Below, piece by piece: positions 50,219-57,842 of a stretch of DNA of 64,000 nucleotides. The translations under genes and the position numbers were made by a program. The DNA is from Candidatus Eremiobacterota bacterium (GTDB taxonomy: Bacteria > Vulcanimicrobiota > Vulcanimicrobiia > Vulcanimicrobiales > Vulcanimicrobiaceae): contig JAFAYE010000001.1 of NCBI GenBank assembly GCA_019240525.1, positions 2,515,300 to 2,579,299 of the forward strand, written 5' to 3'. The first letter of the stretch is position 1; each line of letters starts with the position of its first letter. The notes beneath the pieces are model-generated. The model was not told the DNA's origin. It saw nothing but the letters and a program-made list of their open reading frames with translations, and did not search any database.

Positions 50219-50280
50219 TACTAAATTCTTAGTTGACAACGGCTGCGACTCGCAGTATCATTCAACTAAACATTTAGTAG
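50219..50280 (+). promoter_or_regulatory. Strong promoter with two BlaI-like operators
   Basis: TTGACA (50233-50238) and TATCAT (50256-50261) are spaced exactly 17 bases, a near-consensus sigma-70 promoter. It is flanked by two palindromes: ACTAAATTCTTAGT (50220-50233, touching the -35) and ACTAAACATTTAGT (50265-50278, just after the -10, over the start point). Their ACTA/TAGT half-sites resemble BlaI/MecI operators. Placement over both promoter edges fits repression by the BlaI-family gene downstream. Confidence 0.75.
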
Positions 50281-50296: not shown

Positions 50297-50422
50297 ATGA
50301 CCCATCGCCCAGATTCCCCAACGTTCGAGTTGCCGTTCGCGGCGCGTACGCGAGTCCGACTCCCAGAAAGCATGGCGGCCGGCCGGATATTTCACGGCTG
50401 GGGCCCCAACTTGGGCCGCTAG
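50297..50422 (+). CDS. Possible 41-residue leader peptide
   Basis: An ATG at 50297 preceded by GGAGG (spacing about seven) opens a 41-codon frame ending in TAG at 50420-50422, one base before the blaI ATG. The blaI gene has no ribosome site of its own, so translation through this frame could be needed for blaI expression. The peptide (MTHRPDSPTFELPFAARTRV at its start) matches nothing I know. It may be just a coupling device. The rest of the 295-base gap 50129-50423 holds only the promoter above. Confidence 0.45.
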   Translation: MTHRPDSPTFELPFAARTRVRLPESMAAGRIFHGWGPNLGR

Positions 50423-50423
50423 A

Positions 50424-50810
50424 ATGGCGCGACGACGCTCGAGTACCCTCACCGAAGCGGAGCTGCGCCTCATGGACGTGCTCTGGCAGAAGGGGGAAGC
50501 GACGGTCGCTGAGGTGACCTCCGCGCTTCCCCCACCGCCGATCGCCTATAACAGCGTTCTCACGACCATGCGCATTCTCGAGCGCAAGGGCTACGTCGCT
50601 CACGTCGAGGCAGGACGCGCGTACCTCTACCGACCGGTGGTCGCGCGGGAAGAAGCGGCCGGGCACGCCGTCGGCCATCTTCTTTCAAAGTTCTTTGACA
50701 ACAGCGCCGGGACACTGGCGCTACGCTTGATCGAAACCGAGCGGCCATCGGACGACGAGCTGCAACGACTCAAAGCGCTCATCGAACAATATGAGGAGCC
50801 CACGACGTGA
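50424..50810 (+). CDS. BlaI/MecI/CopY-family transcriptional repressor
   Basis: 128 residues. The N-terminal winged helix reads LTEAELRLMDVLWQKGEATV and AYNSVLTTMRILERKGYVAH, the DNA-contact region of penicillinase repressors; the C-terminal helices (LSKFFDNSAGTLALRLIE) form the dimer interface that BlaR1-type proteases cut or loosen. It should bind the two palindromes at 50219-50280. Start ATG 50424 lies one base after a leader ORF stop. It overlaps the membrane protease gene by four bases (ATGA-type GTGA), the classic blaI-blaR1 arrangement. Confidence 0.92.
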   Translation: MARRRSSTLTEAELRLMDVLWQKGEATVAEVTSALPPPPIAYNSVLTTMRILERKGYVAHVEAGRAYLYRPVVAREEAAGHAVGHLLSKFFDNSAGTLALRLIETERPSDDELQRLKALIEQYEEPTT

Positions 50811-52816
50811 CCGGCTTGGAATCACAGATCGTCACCTTCGCGAGCGCGCTCTCGGCCATCGTGCTCAACGCGCTCTGGCAAGACGCGCTCATCGTCCTGA
50901 GCGTGTGGCTACTCTTGAAAGTGTGGCCCAAGATCAACGCGGCGACGCGATACGTCGTTTGGAGTGCCACGCTCGCGGCGGCATTTCTCGTTCCGGTGGC
51001 GACGACGCTTGCGTTTTTCACGCCGGCCCATGTCGAATCGGTAAGCGGAACGCCGACGTCTTGGAGCACACCGGCGCAAACCGCCGCTGCAAGCCGGCAT
51101 CAACCGCTCGCGCCAAGCCTCCCTGGGCAATCGCTTCGACCGGAGCGCTTGCGCATCACGCTCTCGGCACCGCTCGCGGTGACGATCTTTGTGCTCTGGC
51201 TACTGCTCGCAACGTTCGCGTTGCTCCGGCTCGCGATCGGTCTGCTGCGCTTAGAGCAGCTCAAGCGTGACGCCTTACCGCTTCCAGTCGAATATCGCGA
51301 CGCAATGCCGCAGTGGCTGCGCGCCAGTAAGGGTTCGCGCGACGTTCGCCTCTGCGTGAGCGACGAGACCGACGTGCCGGTGGCGGTCGGGCTCTTCGAC
51401 GCAATGATTTTGGTGCCGCATTCACTGCTCGAGCGTCTCTCTGAGCCGGAAGTGGATCAGATCTGCCTGCACGAGCTTGCGCACCTTCGCCGGGCGGACG
51501 ATTGGACGAACGGCGTGCAGCGCGTCATCAACGGACTCTTGGGCTGGAATCCGGCGGCGCAGTTCATCGGTCAGCAGCTCGATCTCGAACGGGAAGTCGC
51601 CTGCGACGATTGGGTGCTTTCGTTCGTCGGGCAGGTGCGCCCATACGCGCTCTGCCTTACGAAAATGGCCGAGAGCGCCGCGTGGCCGCGCCATACCATA
51701 CCGGCGCCCGGTGTTTTTGCAACGCGCAAACACATTTCGCTGCGTATCGAACGCTTACTCGGCGCCGGGCGTAACATTGCAACGAACCTGGCGGTTGCGC
51801 CGGCGGCGGCAGCCATCACTATGGTTGCGGCGATCGCCCTGGTTATTGGCCTGGTCGCGCCGTCGATTGCGGCAGCGCCCATGGTGACGCCGGCGAAGCC
51901 CGCGGTGGCGGCTCGGCCCGCCGTGGCGGCGAAGCCCGCGGTGGCGGCGACAGCGCCACGACGACAAGTGACGCGCTTCGTTCGCGTTGCGGTATTCGTG
52001 ACACCGTCGCCGGCGGCGACACGCGTTTCGAACATCCACGTTGAAATCCCGGCGACGCACGTCGAGGAGCCGCCGATTCACGTCGACATCCCGAAAACCG
52101 ACGTCAACGTTCCCAAGATGAGCATCGACGTGCCGATGCCGGGCTTCGACGCAAAGGGCTTGGCGAACAAGATTCAAGCGGGCGTTACAGCGGGACTCAT
52201 GCGCGGACTTCACGGCACATCGGTGGCGCAAGGCAATGCGTGCGTTGGCTGCGACTACAGCGGCGTCAACTGGAGCGGTCGCGACATGCACGGCGTAACG
52301 TATAACGGCGTCGACTTCTCAAAGGCGAACCTTTCGGGCGTCAATTTCAGCGGAAGCGCGATGAATGGCGCGGATTTCGGCGGTGCGAATCTGGCCAACG
52401 CATCATTTCGCAACGCGCATTTAACCGGCTGCGATTTCAGCAATGCAAATCTCAGTGGTGTTGACTTCACAAACGCTTGGCTGTCGGGATGCCAGTTCAC
52501 GGGGGCTCGACTCGGCTCGTCGCAGCTTCGCGAAGTTTTACACGGCTGTAAGGGCTGCGATTTCAGCCGAGCCGACCTCTCGGGTCTCGATCTGCACGGC
52601 GTCCAGACCAACGGTGACGACTTTTCCGGCGCCGATTTGCGCAACGTCAACTTCGCCGGAGCGCAGCTGCTCGCAACCGATTTCAGCGATGCGAAGCTCG
52701 ACGGTGCCGACTTCACCGGCGCAACGCTCAACGGGTGTGACTTGAGCGGCGTGGATTTGCATCGAGTCGATTTGTCAAAAGCAAAACTGATCGGTACGGA
52801 TTTGGAAGAACGCTGA
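50807..52816 (+). CDS. BlaR1-type M56 membrane metalloprotease with pentapeptide-repeat sensor domain
   Basis: 669 residues. Transmembrane segments about 17-40, 47-71, 121-147 and 326-357. Between the last two lies the cytoplasmic zinc protease: H222-E-L-A-H226 in CLHELAHLRRADD and E263 in LEREVACDDWV, as in BlaR1/MecR1. After TM4, where BlaR1 carries a class D beta-lactamase-like sensor, comes a PAVAAK/PAVAAR linker, HVEIP/HVDIP strand repeats, and about 185 residues of pentapeptide repeats (A/N-D/N-L-S/F-G type). Two C-x-G-C-D-(Y/F)-S motifs (C479/C482, C581/C584) open its two modules. Likely role: sense an envelope signal and inactivate the repressor. Confidence 0.9.
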   Translation: MTGLESQIVTFASALSAIVLNALWQDALIVLSVWLLLKVWPKINAATRYVVWSATLAAAFLVPVATTLAFFTPAHVESVSGTPTSWSTPAQTAAASRHQPLAPSLPGQSLRPERLRITLSAPLAVTIFVLWLLLATFALLRLAIGLLRLEQLKRDALPLPVEYRDAMPQWLRASKGSRDVRLCVSDETDVPVAVGLFDAMILVPHSLLERLSEPEVDQICLHELAHLRRADDWTNGVQRVINGLLGWNPAAQFIGQQLDLEREVACDDWVLSFVGQVRPYALCLTKMAESAAWPRHTIPAPGVFATRKHISLRIERLLGAGRNIATNLAVAPAAAAITMVAAIALVIGLVAPSIAAAPMVTPAKPAVAARPAVAAKPAVAATAPRRQVTRFVRVAVFVTPSPAATRVSNIHVEIPATHVEEPPIHVDIPKTDVNVPKMSIDVPMPGFDAKGLANKIQAGVTAGLMRGLHGTSVAQGNACVGCDYSGVNWSGRDMHGVTYNGVDFSKANLSGVNFSGSAMNGADFGGANLANASFRNAHLTGCDFSNANLSGVDFTNAWLSGCQFTGARLGSSQLREVLHGCKGCDFSRADLSGLDLHGVQTNGDDFSGADLRNVNFAGAQLLATDFSDAKLDGADFTGATLNGCDLSGVDLHRVDLSKAKLIGTDLEER

Positions 52817-52921: not shown

Positions 52922-53602
52922 ATGATGATCGGTCTGGTCTTCGCGGCAGTGCTGGGGCTGCCGGCAAACTGCATCGGGTGTGACTTTGCCGGCCGTGACC
53001 TGCACGGCGCCAACCTCGCGAATGCTTCGTATGTTGGCGTGGATTTCGCCCGAGCGAATCTGCGCGACGCGAGCTTGCGCGAGGCAAATCTTACGGGCGT
53101 CGACTTCAAAGACGCGGATCTTCGCGGTGCCGACCTGCGTGGCGCAAATCTCACGGGCGTTGATTTAATCGGAGCGCAACTGGACGGGGTTCGGCTCGAC
53201 GGCGCAAAACTGATCGGCGCCGATTTGCGCGGCGCGAATCTCGAGGGCTTCGATTTTTCCGGCGTCTCGATGGTCGGGAGCGACCTACAATCGGTGCGCG
53301 CGCGGAATGCGCGCTTTGAGGGCGCAGAGCTCGAAGGTGTCGATTTCGCGAACGCCGACTTGCGCGAGGCAAACGTTCGCGACGCCCGGCTCTGTTCGCG
53401 CAACCGCGACAGCGACTGGGCCGGCATGGGCGTCGCCGAGCGCATTCAATGCGCCGATTTTCGCGGCGCCGACGTGCGCGGAGCGGACCTGCGGGGCGCG
53501 CTGGTTTGCCCGAGCGGTCGCCAGGTCCGAAGCTGCACGCCGATCGACGCGGCCACCCTGCGGCGCGAGAGCCGTTCCCCCCTCGAGGGAGCGCTTCTCT
53601 AA
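52922..53602 (+). CDS. Exported pentapeptide-repeat protein
   Basis: 226 residues: a short signal-like segment (MMIGLVFAAVLGLPA) followed at once by C17-I-G-C20-D-F, then about 30 pentapeptide repeats (ADLRGANLTG style) forming a right-handed quadrilateral beta helix up to residue 150, and a Cys-containing end (CSRNRD, QCADFRG, VCPSGRQVRSC). It is a close structural relative of the sensor domain of the protease gene before it, so it may compete with it, pair with it or be its ligand. AGGAGA precedes ATG 52922. Its stop overlaps the next ATG (TAATG). Confidence 0.85.
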   Translation: MMIGLVFAAVLGLPANCIGCDFAGRDLHGANLANASYVGVDFARANLRDASLREANLTGVDFKDADLRGADLRGANLTGVDLIGAQLDGVRLDGAKLIGADLRGANLEGFDFSGVSMVGSDLQSVRARNARFEGAELEGVDFANADLREANVRDARLCSRNRDSDWAGMGVAERIQCADFRGADVRGADLRGALVCPSGRQVRSCTPIDAATLRRESRSPLEGALL

Positions 53603-55734
53603 TGCATCCGCGGGCGGCGGCGATCGTCGTTGCCGCGACGATCGCGGCAACGACGGCGCACGCGGCGGCCTATCCCCAACTCGCCGTGCCGCAAGTCGCG
53701 GTACCCGAAGCGGCGAAGCTTTCTCTCGATCCAAATGCGCCCCCGAGCGCGTGGACAAATGCCGGAAGCTTACAGCTCCCCTGGGATCCGGTACGCTCGC
53801 GTCCGGCGAGCGAGTTAACGAAGGCGTGGATTGCGACCGACGGCCGCGCGCTTTACGTCCGCTTCGACGCAGCCCAGCGCGAGCCGATCATCGCGCAGCA
53901 GCATACGAACGACGTGGGTCAGGGAAGCGACGATGAAGTTTGGATCGACCTGTGGCCCAACGGCGTCAACGGCTATTTCTATCAATTCTATGCGACGCCA
54001 AACGGCACGCACTATGAATACTCGTCAGAAAATACGGCGTATTCGCCGAACTGGGAGTCGCAAGGTGCGGCCCACGGCAGCGGCTACACGGTCACGATGA
54101 AGATTCCGTTGGAGGTGATCCGAAACGCGCGCGGCGGCAGCTGGAAAGCGCAGTTCGTTCGATACGTTCGCGCGACGGGCGAGCAGCAGGTTTGGTCGTT
54201 CGATCGCGTGCAGATGCAACCCGATTCGTATGGCAATGCGGACTACGCGCACGCCGGAAGCATATCGGTTCCGCCGCTGACCATCGGCTCGTTGCGTCCC
54301 AAACCTCGTGCCGCCGTCTACGCGCTCGGCGAAGCCGCAAGCAGGACGATCGGCGGCTCGACGTCGCGGATCGGTGCCGATCTCTCGATTCCGATCACGC
54401 CGACGGCATCGTTCTACTCGACGTTTCACCCGGACTATTCGAACGTCGAGCTGGACCAGCAGAGTATTGCGCCGACCGTTTACCAACGTTACTACAGCGA
54501 AGTGCGGCCATTCTTCACGCAGGCGGCGAGCTTCTACAACGACTTCAATTGCGATGCGTGCCCGAACATTCAAGCGCTTTACACGCCCGCAATTCCGACG
54601 CCCGCGGAAGGTTATGCGGTTGAAGGAAAGCAGGGGCCGTTTGGCTTTGCCACATTCGATGCGATCGGCGACAACCGCAACGACCTTGCTAGCGCGATCG
54701 ACTATACGTCCCCGAACGCGATGTGGGGCTCGAGCATCCAGCGCGTCGCTGTCAATTTGCCCGGCTTCGTTGATACCGCTACCGAGGCCGGGGTCGCCTA
54801 TAACGACCTCAAGCACATGAGCGCGTATTTCAACTATGGGAACGATTCGGGAACGAACGTGCTCGTGCCGAGTCAGGCGCAGTACTACGATGTGGGCGGC
54901 GGCTGGGCGAACCAAACCTTTGGGTTTTTCGGTTCCACCCGAAAGGTCGGTGAATACTACAATCCGGTCGACGGATTCGTCTCGCATCCGGGTATTGCCG
55001 GTTACGCGCTGTACGCCGCAAAGATTTGGGATTTCGACAGCAACGACCAGCTCGTCTCGGCCGGCGTCGCGGGTTTCGTGGACCGGTACCAAGGCCCGAC
55101 GATGGGGCAGGCTCAGAGCGACAACCAGATCATCGTCGACCTTCTCACCAAGCACGCTCTGGACTTGCAGCTCTTCAGCGGTTCGAATTATTGGCGCTTC
55201 GGCGACGTGCTGACGCCGGTTTCGCAAAACGGCGGCTTTCAACTGACCTACGATAGCGGCTTGCAGACGAACAATCCGGGCAACTTCCCCAACCACGGCC
55301 CTTCGGCGACGCCGACGACGATCAACTACAGCACAGGACGGTATGGGCTCGGGCGCCTCGACACGTGGTTTCGCACGACAACGATTCGCGTCGGCAATCA
55401 CGGCGCCCTGACGCTTGCGCTCGATGACACGGCGCAATGGATACCGGCGCCGAATCCGAGCAACGTTCAGTGGTTCGAAAGCCTCAGCTACGCCTACCAG
55501 ATCGGCCGCAATTCGTCATTGGCGATCGGCCTGCGACGCGTGGTCGGCGATCCGCCGATTCCCAACGGCGGGGGAGACTGCATCGGCACCTGCTCGAACA
55601 TCTCGGTCGCCTATCATCTGCGCCTACGCAACAGCGAGTTTTATCTCGCCTACGGCAACCCGAACACGCTCATCACGGTGCCGCAAGCAATCTTCAAGGT
55701 GATCTTCTACGGGGGCGCAGCGAAAGGCACATGA
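53602..55734 (+). CDS. CBM9-like / DUF5916 outer-membrane-type protein
   Basis: 710 residues. Signal peptide (AAAIVVAATIAATTAHA), then a carbohydrate-binding-module-9-like domain (about 25-210: LTKAWIATDGRALYVRFDA; DDEVWIDLWPNGVNGYFYQF), then a long beta-rich C-terminal part (DUF5916; FYSTFHPDYSNVELDQQS and many paired beta hairpins) ending in a strand that closes with F-Y, typical for outer-membrane barrels. It may bind a polysaccharide or act as a porin-like channel. ATG 53602 overlaps the previous stop, and the end overlaps the S9 gene. Confidence 0.85.
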   Translation: MHPRAAAIVVAATIAATTAHAAAYPQLAVPQVAVPEAAKLSLDPNAPPSAWTNAGSLQLPWDPVRSRPASELTKAWIATDGRALYVRFDAAQREPIIAQQHTNDVGQGSDDEVWIDLWPNGVNGYFYQFYATPNGTHYEYSSENTAYSPNWESQGAAHGSGYTVTMKIPLEVIRNARGGSWKAQFVRYVRATGEQQVWSFDRVQMQPDSYGNADYAHAGSISVPPLTIGSLRPKPRAAVYALGEAASRTIGGSTSRIGADLSIPITPTASFYSTFHPDYSNVELDQQSIAPTVYQRYYSEVRPFFTQAASFYNDFNCDACPNIQALYTPAIPTPAEGYAVEGKQGPFGFATFDAIGDNRNDLASAIDYTSPNAMWGSSIQRVAVNLPGFVDTATEAGVAYNDLKHMSAYFNYGNDSGTNVLVPSQAQYYDVGGGWANQTFGFFGSTRKVGEYYNPVDGFVSHPGIAGYALYAAKIWDFDSNDQLVSAGVAGFVDRYQGPTMGQAQSDNQIIVDLLTKHALDLQLFSGSNYWRFGDVLTPVSQNGGFQLTYDSGLQTNNPGNFPNHGPSATPTTINYSTGRYGLGRLDTWFRTTTIRVGNHGALTLALDDTAQWIPAPNPSNVQWFESLSYAYQIGRNSSLAIGLRRVVGDPPIPNGGGDCIGTCSNISVAYHLRLRNSEFYLAYGNPNTLITVPQAIFKVIFYGGAAKGT

Positions 55735-57842
55735 AACCGCGGGATGCCTTGGAGGGTATGAGGGGCATGCGCTTCTTGCCTTTCATCGCATTTTTGGCAG
55801 CATTCAGTCCCGCGGCGGCCCTGGCTGGGCCGGTCGCCCCCGAGGACCTTTTTAAGCTGACGTTTTTGAACACCGCCAGCATATCGCCCGAGGGCAGCCA
55901 CGTGCTGGTCGAGGCGTCGCGAATGGACGGCCCGAAAAATGCCTACGACCGCACGATCGAGCTGGTCGACGTTTCCAGCGCAAAACTGACGCATAACGTT
56001 ACGGGCCACGTCGGCGACGGCGATTTCGCGTGGATGCCGGATGGCCGAAGCTTTGTTTTCGTACGAACGGTCGAAAAGCAGAAGCCGCAACTGTATCGCT
56101 ATACCCTTGCGACTGGCCGAATCGTGCAACTGACGCACATCAAACAGGGCGTTTCGAGCCCGGTCGTTTCACACGCGGGCGACCGCATCGCACTGGCCGT
56201 TACCGATACCGATCCGGCTCCGAATGCGCGCATCGACTTCGCCAAGGCCGGCTTCACGCCGAAGGACTCGGAGAAGAAGAGCGACATCCACACGATCACC
56301 GAGCTCTTCTTTCAAGCCAACGGACAAGGTTACGTCTATCAGGATCACCAGCACATCTGGACGATCGACGCCGACGGCTCGAACCCCAAAGCACTAACGT
56401 CGGGAAAATACTCCGAGGGCTTCGACGCGTGGTCGTCGGACGACCGAACCATTCTTTTCGATTCGCTTCGGTACGAGGCGGTCGACAGCGGACCGAGCGA
56501 TGTCTACACCATCCCTTCGACTCCCACGACTTCAGCGGCGACAGGCTCGGCGATGCAAAAAGTCACGTCGCCGCTGCCGGCAAACAACGGTTTCTTCTTT
56601 TCACACGACGGTAGGCGAGTCTATTTCCTCAGCGCCGACGTGAAAGATTCGGCGGAACGTCCGGCATTAGTGTCGGCGAACCTCGATGGCTCGGATCGCC
56701 GTACGATCGTGCCTCCGAATACCGTCGGATGGGGCGACACGCTGCTTGCCGATATGAAGGAGGGCGGCGGCCTCTGCGGCGGACCGGTCGGCGACCGAGA
56801 GACGATGCTGCTCAACGTCGACGGACCGGGCTATTCCAATCTGCGCACGCTTAATCTTACGAGCGGCTCGTTTTCCGACGTCACGCCGGCCAAAGGCGAG
56901 GCGTTCTCTTGCACCGTCACGACAGACGGCAGCCGGGTTGCATATCTCTACAGCGACTTTACCCATCCAGCCGAACTCTACATAGCGGATACATCCGGTG
57001 GTGCACCGCGCCGACTAACCGATGTCAACGCGTCCTATCTTGCCTCGGCGACGCTTTCCCAGCCGCAAGAGTTCAGCGTGAAAGATCCGGCGGGCTTCAC
57101 GGTTCAGGCGTGGTTCATGCCCGCGACGACGGGCGCCGGTTCGAAACATCCCACCTTGCTCGATATTCACGGCGGCCCCGAAACGCAGTTCGGCGACACG
57201 TTCTTTGCGGAGTTCCAACTCTACACGTCGATGGGTTACAATGTGGTTTTTTCCGATCCCGCCGGCAGCACCGGACACGGCTACCCCTTCGAAGAGGCGC
57301 TGGAAAATAATTACGGCGACGCGATGTTTGCCGACGTGCAGGCGGTCATGGATGCAGCTATCGCGCGCCCCGACGTTGACGCGACGCGCCTCGGCGTGCT
57401 CGGTGGATCTTACGGCGGGTATGCGACGCTTTGGGTTATCGCCCATACCGACCGTTACAAGGTTGCCGTCGCCGAGCGTGCGGTGAGCAATCTTCAAAGC
57501 GAGAATCTGGCAGCCGATTTTGCGGGGAAGAACGGTTTAGGCGGCGGTTACTACAACTGGGGGCCACCTTGGGATCCGGCGAGCGCCGACTATGCCAAGT
57601 TCTCTCCACTCACGTACGTCGCCGGCGTCCATACGCCGGTCATGGTTCTCCATGCCGACGAAGATACTCGCGCGCCAATCGACCAGACGCTGCAAGAGTT
57701 CACTTCGCTGAAGATCCTCGGGCGCACGGTCGAATACGTCGCGGTCCCCGACGAGAATCACGATCTCTCGCGCACCGGATCTCCCATCCATCGAGTCGAG
57801 CGTCTGCACCTCATTCTGGACTGGCTGCAACGATATATTTGA
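55731..57842 (+). CDS. Exported S9 family serine peptidase (prolyl oligopeptidase / acylaminoacyl type)
   Basis: About 703 residues from ATG 55731; a better signal peptide starts at ATG 55767 (MRFLPFIAFLAAFSPAAALA, preceded by GGAGG). N-terminal seven-bladed beta-propeller with DPP-IV/TolB-type repeats (FAWMPDGRSFVFVRT; GYVYQDHQHIWTIDADGSNP), then the alpha/beta hydrolase domain with nucleophile Ser560 (GGSYGGYATL), Asp in LHADEDTRAP and His in DENHDLSRTG. It degrades small peptides in the periplasm. Overlap with the DUF5916 gene means it is part of the same operon. Confidence 0.93.
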   Translation: MKPRDALEGMRGMRFLPFIAFLAAFSPAAALAGPVAPEDLFKLTFLNTASISPEGSHVLVEASRMDGPKNAYDRTIELVDVSSAKLTHNVTGHVGDGDFAWMPDGRSFVFVRTVEKQKPQLYRYTLATGRIVQLTHIKQGVSSPVVSHAGDRIALAVTDTDPAPNARIDFAKAGFTPKDSEKKSDIHTITELFFQANGQGYVYQDHQHIWTIDADGSNPKALTSGKYSEGFDAWSSDDRTILFDSLRYEAVDSGPSDVYTIPSTPTTSAATGSAMQKVTSPLPANNGFFFSHDGRRVYFLSADVKDSAERPALVSANLDGSDRRTIVPPNTVGWGDTLLADMKEGGGLCGGPVGDRETMLLNVDGPGYSNLRTLNLTSGSFSDVTPAKGEAFSCTVTTDGSRVAYLYSDFTHPAELYIADTSGGAPRRLTDVNASYLASATLSQPQEFSVKDPAGFTVQAWFMPATTGAGSKHPTLLDIHGGPETQFGDTFFAEFQLYTSMGYNVVFSDPAGSTGHGYPFEEALENNYGDAMFADVQAVMDAAIARPDVDATRLGVLGGSYGGYATLWVIAHTDRYKVAVAERAVSNLQSENLAADFAGKNGLGGGYYNWGPPWDPASADYAKFSPLTYVAGVHTPVMVLHADEDTRAPIDQTLQEFTSLKILGRTVEYVAVPDENHDLSRTGSPIHRVERLHLILDWLQRYI

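Follow-up and report, generated by a model that had tools for sequence, protein, structure and literature searches.

BlaR1 is a textbook case of membrane-metalloprotease signalling. Genomes commonly encode M56 proteins, which to our knowledge are largely uncharacterised outside resistance. A locus in a 64,000-nucleotide stretch of an Eremiobacterota genome (the window) raises the question of what such a receptor monitors when its ectodomain consists of pentapeptide repeats, and what it controls. Repressor and receptor belong to known types; for the sensor, product and regulon we found no description in the literature searched. Within that literature (subscription papers and protein databases lay outside its scope), no paper joins BlaR1 or M56 proteins to pentapeptide repeats, and the two texts in which BlaR1 and "pentapeptide repeat" occur together are reviews of resistance. 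The initial annotation knew of no characterised system of this build either. The locus represents a clade-wide BlaR1 variant in soil bacteria of a little-studied phylum, with another sensor and a likely operator and regulon, and provides a concrete gene set for asking what M56 receptors detect besides beta-lactams.

The receptor and its pentapeptide-repeat ectodomain

The receptor gene (50807–52816) starts with GTG, shares four nucleotides with the end of blaI and has a frame that is open to its stop codon. The initial annotation had described a BlaI repressor overlapping an M56 protease, and this holds: Pfam matches both proteins, with PF05569 (Peptidase_M56) covering fusion residues 19–315 (E value 1.2e-26), and the motifs HELAH (222–226) and EREVACDDW (261–269) are intact. 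Four relatives from public genomes (L001–L004) align to the fusion nearly end to end with 43–63% identity. Searches of the order and the phylum, followed by retrieval of 100 neighbourhoods, yielded 61 M56–pentapeptide fusions (window included), which belong to two families of the class Eremiobacteria, and blaI adjoins the fusion gene in 61 of the 61 loci. A frame error near 52200 joining two separate genes, against which the initial annotation had warned, is ruled out by the full-length relatives and the 61 fusion ORFs. Eleven genomes of the phylum that lie outside the class have M56 or pentapeptide matches only separately, at different places, and the best matches in a plasmid collection are pentapeptide-only or M56-only, with no fusion among them.

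When the fusion is aligned with a plasmid-borne BlaR1 from Priestia and a MecR-type protein from Macrococcus, no substitution is seen at H222, E223, H226, E263, D267 or R313. On this alignment, H222, H226 and E263 are the zinc ligands, E223 is the base, and D267 and R313 are the counterparts of BlaR1 D246 and R294 (functional residues of BlaR1 from PMC9834060; the R313 match comes from our own alignment only). Hydrophobic spans lie at approximately 18–36, 50–68, 122–140 and 333–351, together with a segment near 190–208 that resembles the re-entrant segment of BlaR1 (BlaR1 topology from PMC9834060). Since the spans are arranged as in BlaR1, the pentapeptide repeats are predicted, as previously claimed, to be probably outside the membrane like the BlaR1 sensor. 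Judged from its sequence, the overall layout is that of BlaR1 with its sensor swapped out. The fusion has no Pfam match to a transpeptidase or penicillin-binding domain and carries pentapeptide repeats in its place, which bears out the claim that a penicillin-binding sensor is absent; NCBIfam BlaR1 models reach its N-terminal half only and score far below cut-off.

Staphylococcus aureus BlaI is cut between Asn101 and Phe102. In an alignment with plasmid repressors, the residues at this site are Arg-Leu in the window BlaI; with the Phe absent, cleavage may be elsewhere or may not occur. A conserved phenylalanine of the receptor, Phe304 (APGVF), appears in the alignment near the position of the BlaR1 autocleavage residue Phe284.

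Behind the last span come a conserved VAPS-type motif and a linker of some 120 residues, which leads into the repeats. About 190 residues from C479 onwards match pentapeptide families, with PF00805 giving the best figure (Table 1), close to the 185 or so residues initially estimated. Structure prediction, which the initial annotation had asked for, gives a right-handed quadrilateral beta-helix for the ectodomain, which together with the PF00805 match fits the definition of a pentapeptide-repeat protein (at least eight contiguous repeats); the M56 half is not usable (pLDDT <50, alignment of five sequences). The modelled ectodomain matches HetL (Z 22.2), MfpA (Z 19.9) and QnrB1 (Z ∼ 19) over 171–196 residues. 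BlaR1 is absent from the fold list of the full-length model, which is uninformative because the repeat domain fills that list. The NCBIfam Qnr and MfpA models do not assign the ectodomain to either family (67 bits against a cut-off of 240, and 43.9 against 360, respectively).

Each of the two repeat blocks opens with a CxGC motif. Among 47 ectodomains chosen for having both, the motifs are exactly 102 residues apart. A further cysteine, C644, is 97% conserved. One or both motifs are missing in some other fusions (L045, L047, L048, L068 and L069 among others).

Promoter, putative operators and downstream genes

Two ACTAA-N4-TTAGT palindromes, at 50220 and 50265, stand 45 bp apart and bracket a promoter (Table 1). 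Both copies in the 2.8-Mb genome are found here, and none is expected in shuffled sequences. The palindromes overlap the promoter as BlaI-type operators do, and by analogy with the established behaviour of BlaI we take them as its putative operators. One-mismatch versions are fewer in this genome than matches to a reversed-pattern control, and we therefore claim no extra sites. The promoter is the sole promoter-like site between 50100 and 58000, where chance alone would give about 1.3 such sites; the argument for it consequently rests on position and conservation. The same layout recurs upstream of blaI in relatives, with the paired palindromes often 44–46 bp apart.

Table 1. Features of the repressor–receptor operon (window coordinates)
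Feature	Position	Strand	Evidence or remark
Putative operator 1, ACTAAATTCTTAGT, extending into the -35 hexamer	50220..50233		Two sites only in own genome; 44–46 bp pairs in many relatives
Promoter, TTGACA - 17 nt - TATCAT	50233..50261	+	11/12 consensus matches; same layout in relatives
Putative operator 2, ACTAAACATTTAGT, at the expected transcription start	50265..50278		Palindrome search
Small upstream ORF, 41 aa (...ARTRVRLP...GWGP...; MTHRPDSPTFELPFAARTRVRLPESMAAGRIFHGWGPNLGR)	50297..50422	+	Stop 1 nt before blaI start
BlaI/MecI-type repressor, 128 aa	50424..50810	+	PF03965 (Penicillinase_R), E 1.6e-29; alignment with plasmid BlaI/MecI-type repressors
M56 protease and membrane part of the fusion	50807..51955	+	HELAH 222–226, E263, D267, R313; predicted TM4 ∼ 333–351
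Pro/Ala-rich linker with VPxxHV-like repeats	51956..52240	+	Low confidence in structure model
Pentapeptide-repeat ectodomain, two blocks	52241..52816	+	PF00805, 6.4e-46; CxGC at C479/C482 and C581/C584
Predicted exported pentapeptide-repeat protein, homologous to the sensor ectodomain	52922..53602	+	Pfam, alignment, hydrophobicity
Predicted exported DUF5916-like protein, 711 aa	53599..55734	+	Weak PF19313, above cut-off in relative L107; fourth gene in most relatives
S9 prolyl-oligopeptidase-family peptidase, predicted signal peptide, fifth gene	55731..57842	+	PF00326, 1.8e-45

The small ORF between operator 2 and blaI is preceded by a GGAGG-type site. It is kept in nine loci of the genus, in which RTRVR and GWGP are constant, and its third codon positions vary most (784 versus 463 and 361). 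Other genera have a short leader instead. Rfam detects no riboswitch or known RNA in the region.

The initial annotation treated the finding as two genes. It is actually an operon with a predicted exported pentapeptide protein, two more predicted exported proteins and an upstream microprotein ORF; that annotation had overlooked the paired operators, the secreted homolog of the sensor and a sister class of receptors (below). The gene behind the receptor encodes a protein whose N terminus is hydrophobic and whose coil, of the sensor's kind, opens with PANCIGCDF. Its signal peptide in the window is short and its exact start uncertain; a hydrophobic stretch precedes CxGC in 45 of 46 testable cases. 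Identity between ectodomain and secreted protein is 34–48%, varying with register and partly reflecting repeat composition. A pentapeptide-repeat gene lies directly behind the receptor in 47 of the 61 fusion loci, and seven more pass straight to a DUF5916-like gene with no pentapeptide gene between. The fourth and fifth genes are joined to the preceding ones by 4-nt ATGA overlaps, and no convincing terminator was found between operon genes. The S9 gene also follows the DUF5916-like gene in L038, L039, L040, L048 and L052.

Five loci (L087, L088, L091, L096 and L097) have two consecutive pentapeptide-repeat genes behind the receptor. The DUF5916-like family, barely recognised by Pfam, occurs behind both receptor classes and also alone behind an operator.

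Sister receptors and the likely wider regulon

Thirteen M56 loci encode an ectodomain of alpha-helical repeats of about 23–26 residues (LKSVGVTPDYIKxMRxAG), and many of them share the operator pair. The product of the next gene, which often overlaps by 4 nt, shares these repeats and is predicted to be exported. The promoter–operator is present at 51 of 61 pentapeptide-type and 9 of 13 alpha-repeat-type loci, compared with 0 of 14 loci whose M56 protein has a TonB_C tail, which argues that it belongs to this BlaI subfamily. L006 and its relatives, the M56–TonB_C receptors encoded in these genomes, likewise combine BlaI with M56 and differ in their short tail and separate clade. L006 (C1:1364838, TonB_C tail) and L007 (C1:687716, other tail) are further BlaI–M56 loci in the window's own genome, and neither has the operator.

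In all 57 loci whose product could be scored, sensor and product carry the same repeat type. In the M56 tree, both sensor types require at least three changes on well-supported branches. This matching is striking rather than statistically proven by the phylogeny, as it provides only one or two independent contrasts and the sign test is not significant.

Across 103 genomes of the order, the pattern YTAA-N4-TTAGTTGACA is found 89 times, in 57 of them, and the reversed pattern not once. There is usually one match per genome in the window's genus and more in other genera. Behind 32 further sites we found standalone pentapeptide-repeat genes (6), DUF5916-like genes (6), an S9 peptidase gene (1), Toastrack (DUF4097) genes (2) and blaI-bearing loci (5), and 12 sites are without a clearly fitting gene. 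That the operon's own gene types recur at unlinked sites is the strongest evidence that they form one functional set. Toastrack domains partner membrane-stress systems (PMC11237479), and their presence points to the envelope.

L188 and L193 are the loci with Toastrack proteins behind the promoter–operator. A small exported protein resembling them lies between operator and blaI in L183, although Pfam does not confirm it as Toastrack. A winged-helix and TPR transcriptional regulator follows the promoter–operator in L186.

Mechanism and candidate signals

The locus shares with BlaI–BlaR1 and MecI–MecR1 of Staphylococcus and Bacillus the repressor family, a four-helix M56 gluzincin receptor (HExxH...E and the D246 and R294 equivalents) and palindromic operators around the promoter. 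The BlaR1 sensor is related to class D beta-lactamases (PMC9834060), and as in BlaR1 the sensor here is homologous to the kind of product that is regulated. Unlike BlaR1 and MecR1, the receptor has a pentapeptide beta-helix ectodomain and no beta-lactam site, its partner BlaI does not keep the cut-site Phe, and the operon yields, instead of a beta-lactamase or PBP2a, a secreted repeat protein together with a DUF5916-like protein and an S9 peptidase.

We consider it reasonably probable that the operon is a BlaR1-like, self-controlled circuit of proteolytic derepression for an envelope response. BlaI on the two operators, covering the -35 hexamer and the start site, would keep expression low. 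The receptor, a four-helix M56 protein, would hold its protease inside and its pentapeptide beta-helix outside. A change outside, most likely in the state of a ligand common to the ectodomain and the secreted homolog, or in the homolog itself, would move the ectodomain; the gluzincin domain would then cut BlaI and the operon would open. The output would be more of the secreted pentapeptide protein, the DUF5916-like protein and the secreted S9 peptidase; other genera would have a wider regulon, with more such genes and Toastrack proteins. The switch probably monitors an envelope feature other than penicillin. The earlier guess that the signal might be another pentapeptide protein gains weight, as the next gene encodes one.

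A specific form of this idea is that the ectodomain binds the secreted pentapeptide protein end-to-end, measures free coil and so holds its level constant. Product and sensor share the fold and the CxGC N-caps, repeat types are matched in both sensor classes, and there is a precedent in SV2C, whose luminal pentapeptide domain is bound via an open edge strand (PMC8145042). In SV2C, too, a pentapeptide beta-helix belongs to a membrane protein and is itself the receptor that is bound at the open edge, but SV2C is a eukaryotic transporter and has no signalling protease. The seven fusion loci that go straight to the DUF5916-like gene speak against such self-measurement, and we regard it as possible but doubtful.

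Alternatively, the thiol-disulfide or metal state of the paired CxGC motifs, and not a shared ligand, could trigger the protease, with the secreted homolog repairing or buffering. The fixed spacing of the pair in 47 ectodomains, the CxGC that starts the secreted proteins and the near-constant C644 are consistent with this. The cyanobacterial proteins Rfr23 and Rfr32 are likewise exported right-handed quadrilateral beta-helices, though standalone and without a receptor protease or BlaI; the destination of Rfr32 is the thylakoid lumen, and the C39–C42 disulfide bracket of Rfr23 is described as stabilising (PMC8145042), so CxGC may merely cap the helix. A structural role of CxGC is at least as likely as a redox role. 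Moreover, the Eremiobacterial fusions L068 and L069 are without CxxC, and the alpha-repeat sisters have the same kind of promoter–operator without CxGC motifs. Redox or metal sensing is therefore unlikely, and because of the Rfr23 disulfide and the sisters we favour a common ligand, or the secreted coil itself, as the signal.

A low probability also attaches to the reading that the locus is functionally a resistance switch whose repeats respond to a wall polymer or to damage of the wall. The shared BlaI–M56 chassis speaks for it, and the Toastrack genes of the wider regulon suggest envelope stress (PMC11237479); against it, the receptor has no penicillin-binding domain, and neither the operon nor the regulon genes that were identified include a beta-lactamase or PBP gene. 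That the repeats are cytoplasmic and act as a Qnr/MfpA-like DNA mimic or decoy for BlaI or gyrase is very improbable: the fold is that of MfpA and Qnr and the ectodomain has a net charge of -10 over 194 residues, but Qnr, MfpA and HetL are cytoplasmic proteins and not membrane receptors, whereas the topology of the fusion resembles that of BlaR1 in having one span behind the cytoplasmic protease, and the fusion also has CxGC caps, a Pro-rich linker and an exported homolog next door.

The sister class adds a third kind of sensor to BlaR1-type receptors. Tentatively, and with rather less than even confidence, BlaI–M56 may be a general platform in Eremiobacteria on which sensor and secreted product, beta-helix or alpha-repeats, are swapped together, so that the receptor would gauge its own product or a common ligand and would have no beta-lactam role. 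The functions of extracytoplasmic pentapeptide repeats are mostly unknown (PMC8145042), and the operon gives them a regulated context. Pfam gives no confident match for the alpha-repeat region of L079 and L083, and NCBIfam gives none for that of L079. GVTxxYV repeats lie on the predicted outside in L079–L084, L106, L111, L113, L140 and L145, and in most of these the next gene carries the same repeats.
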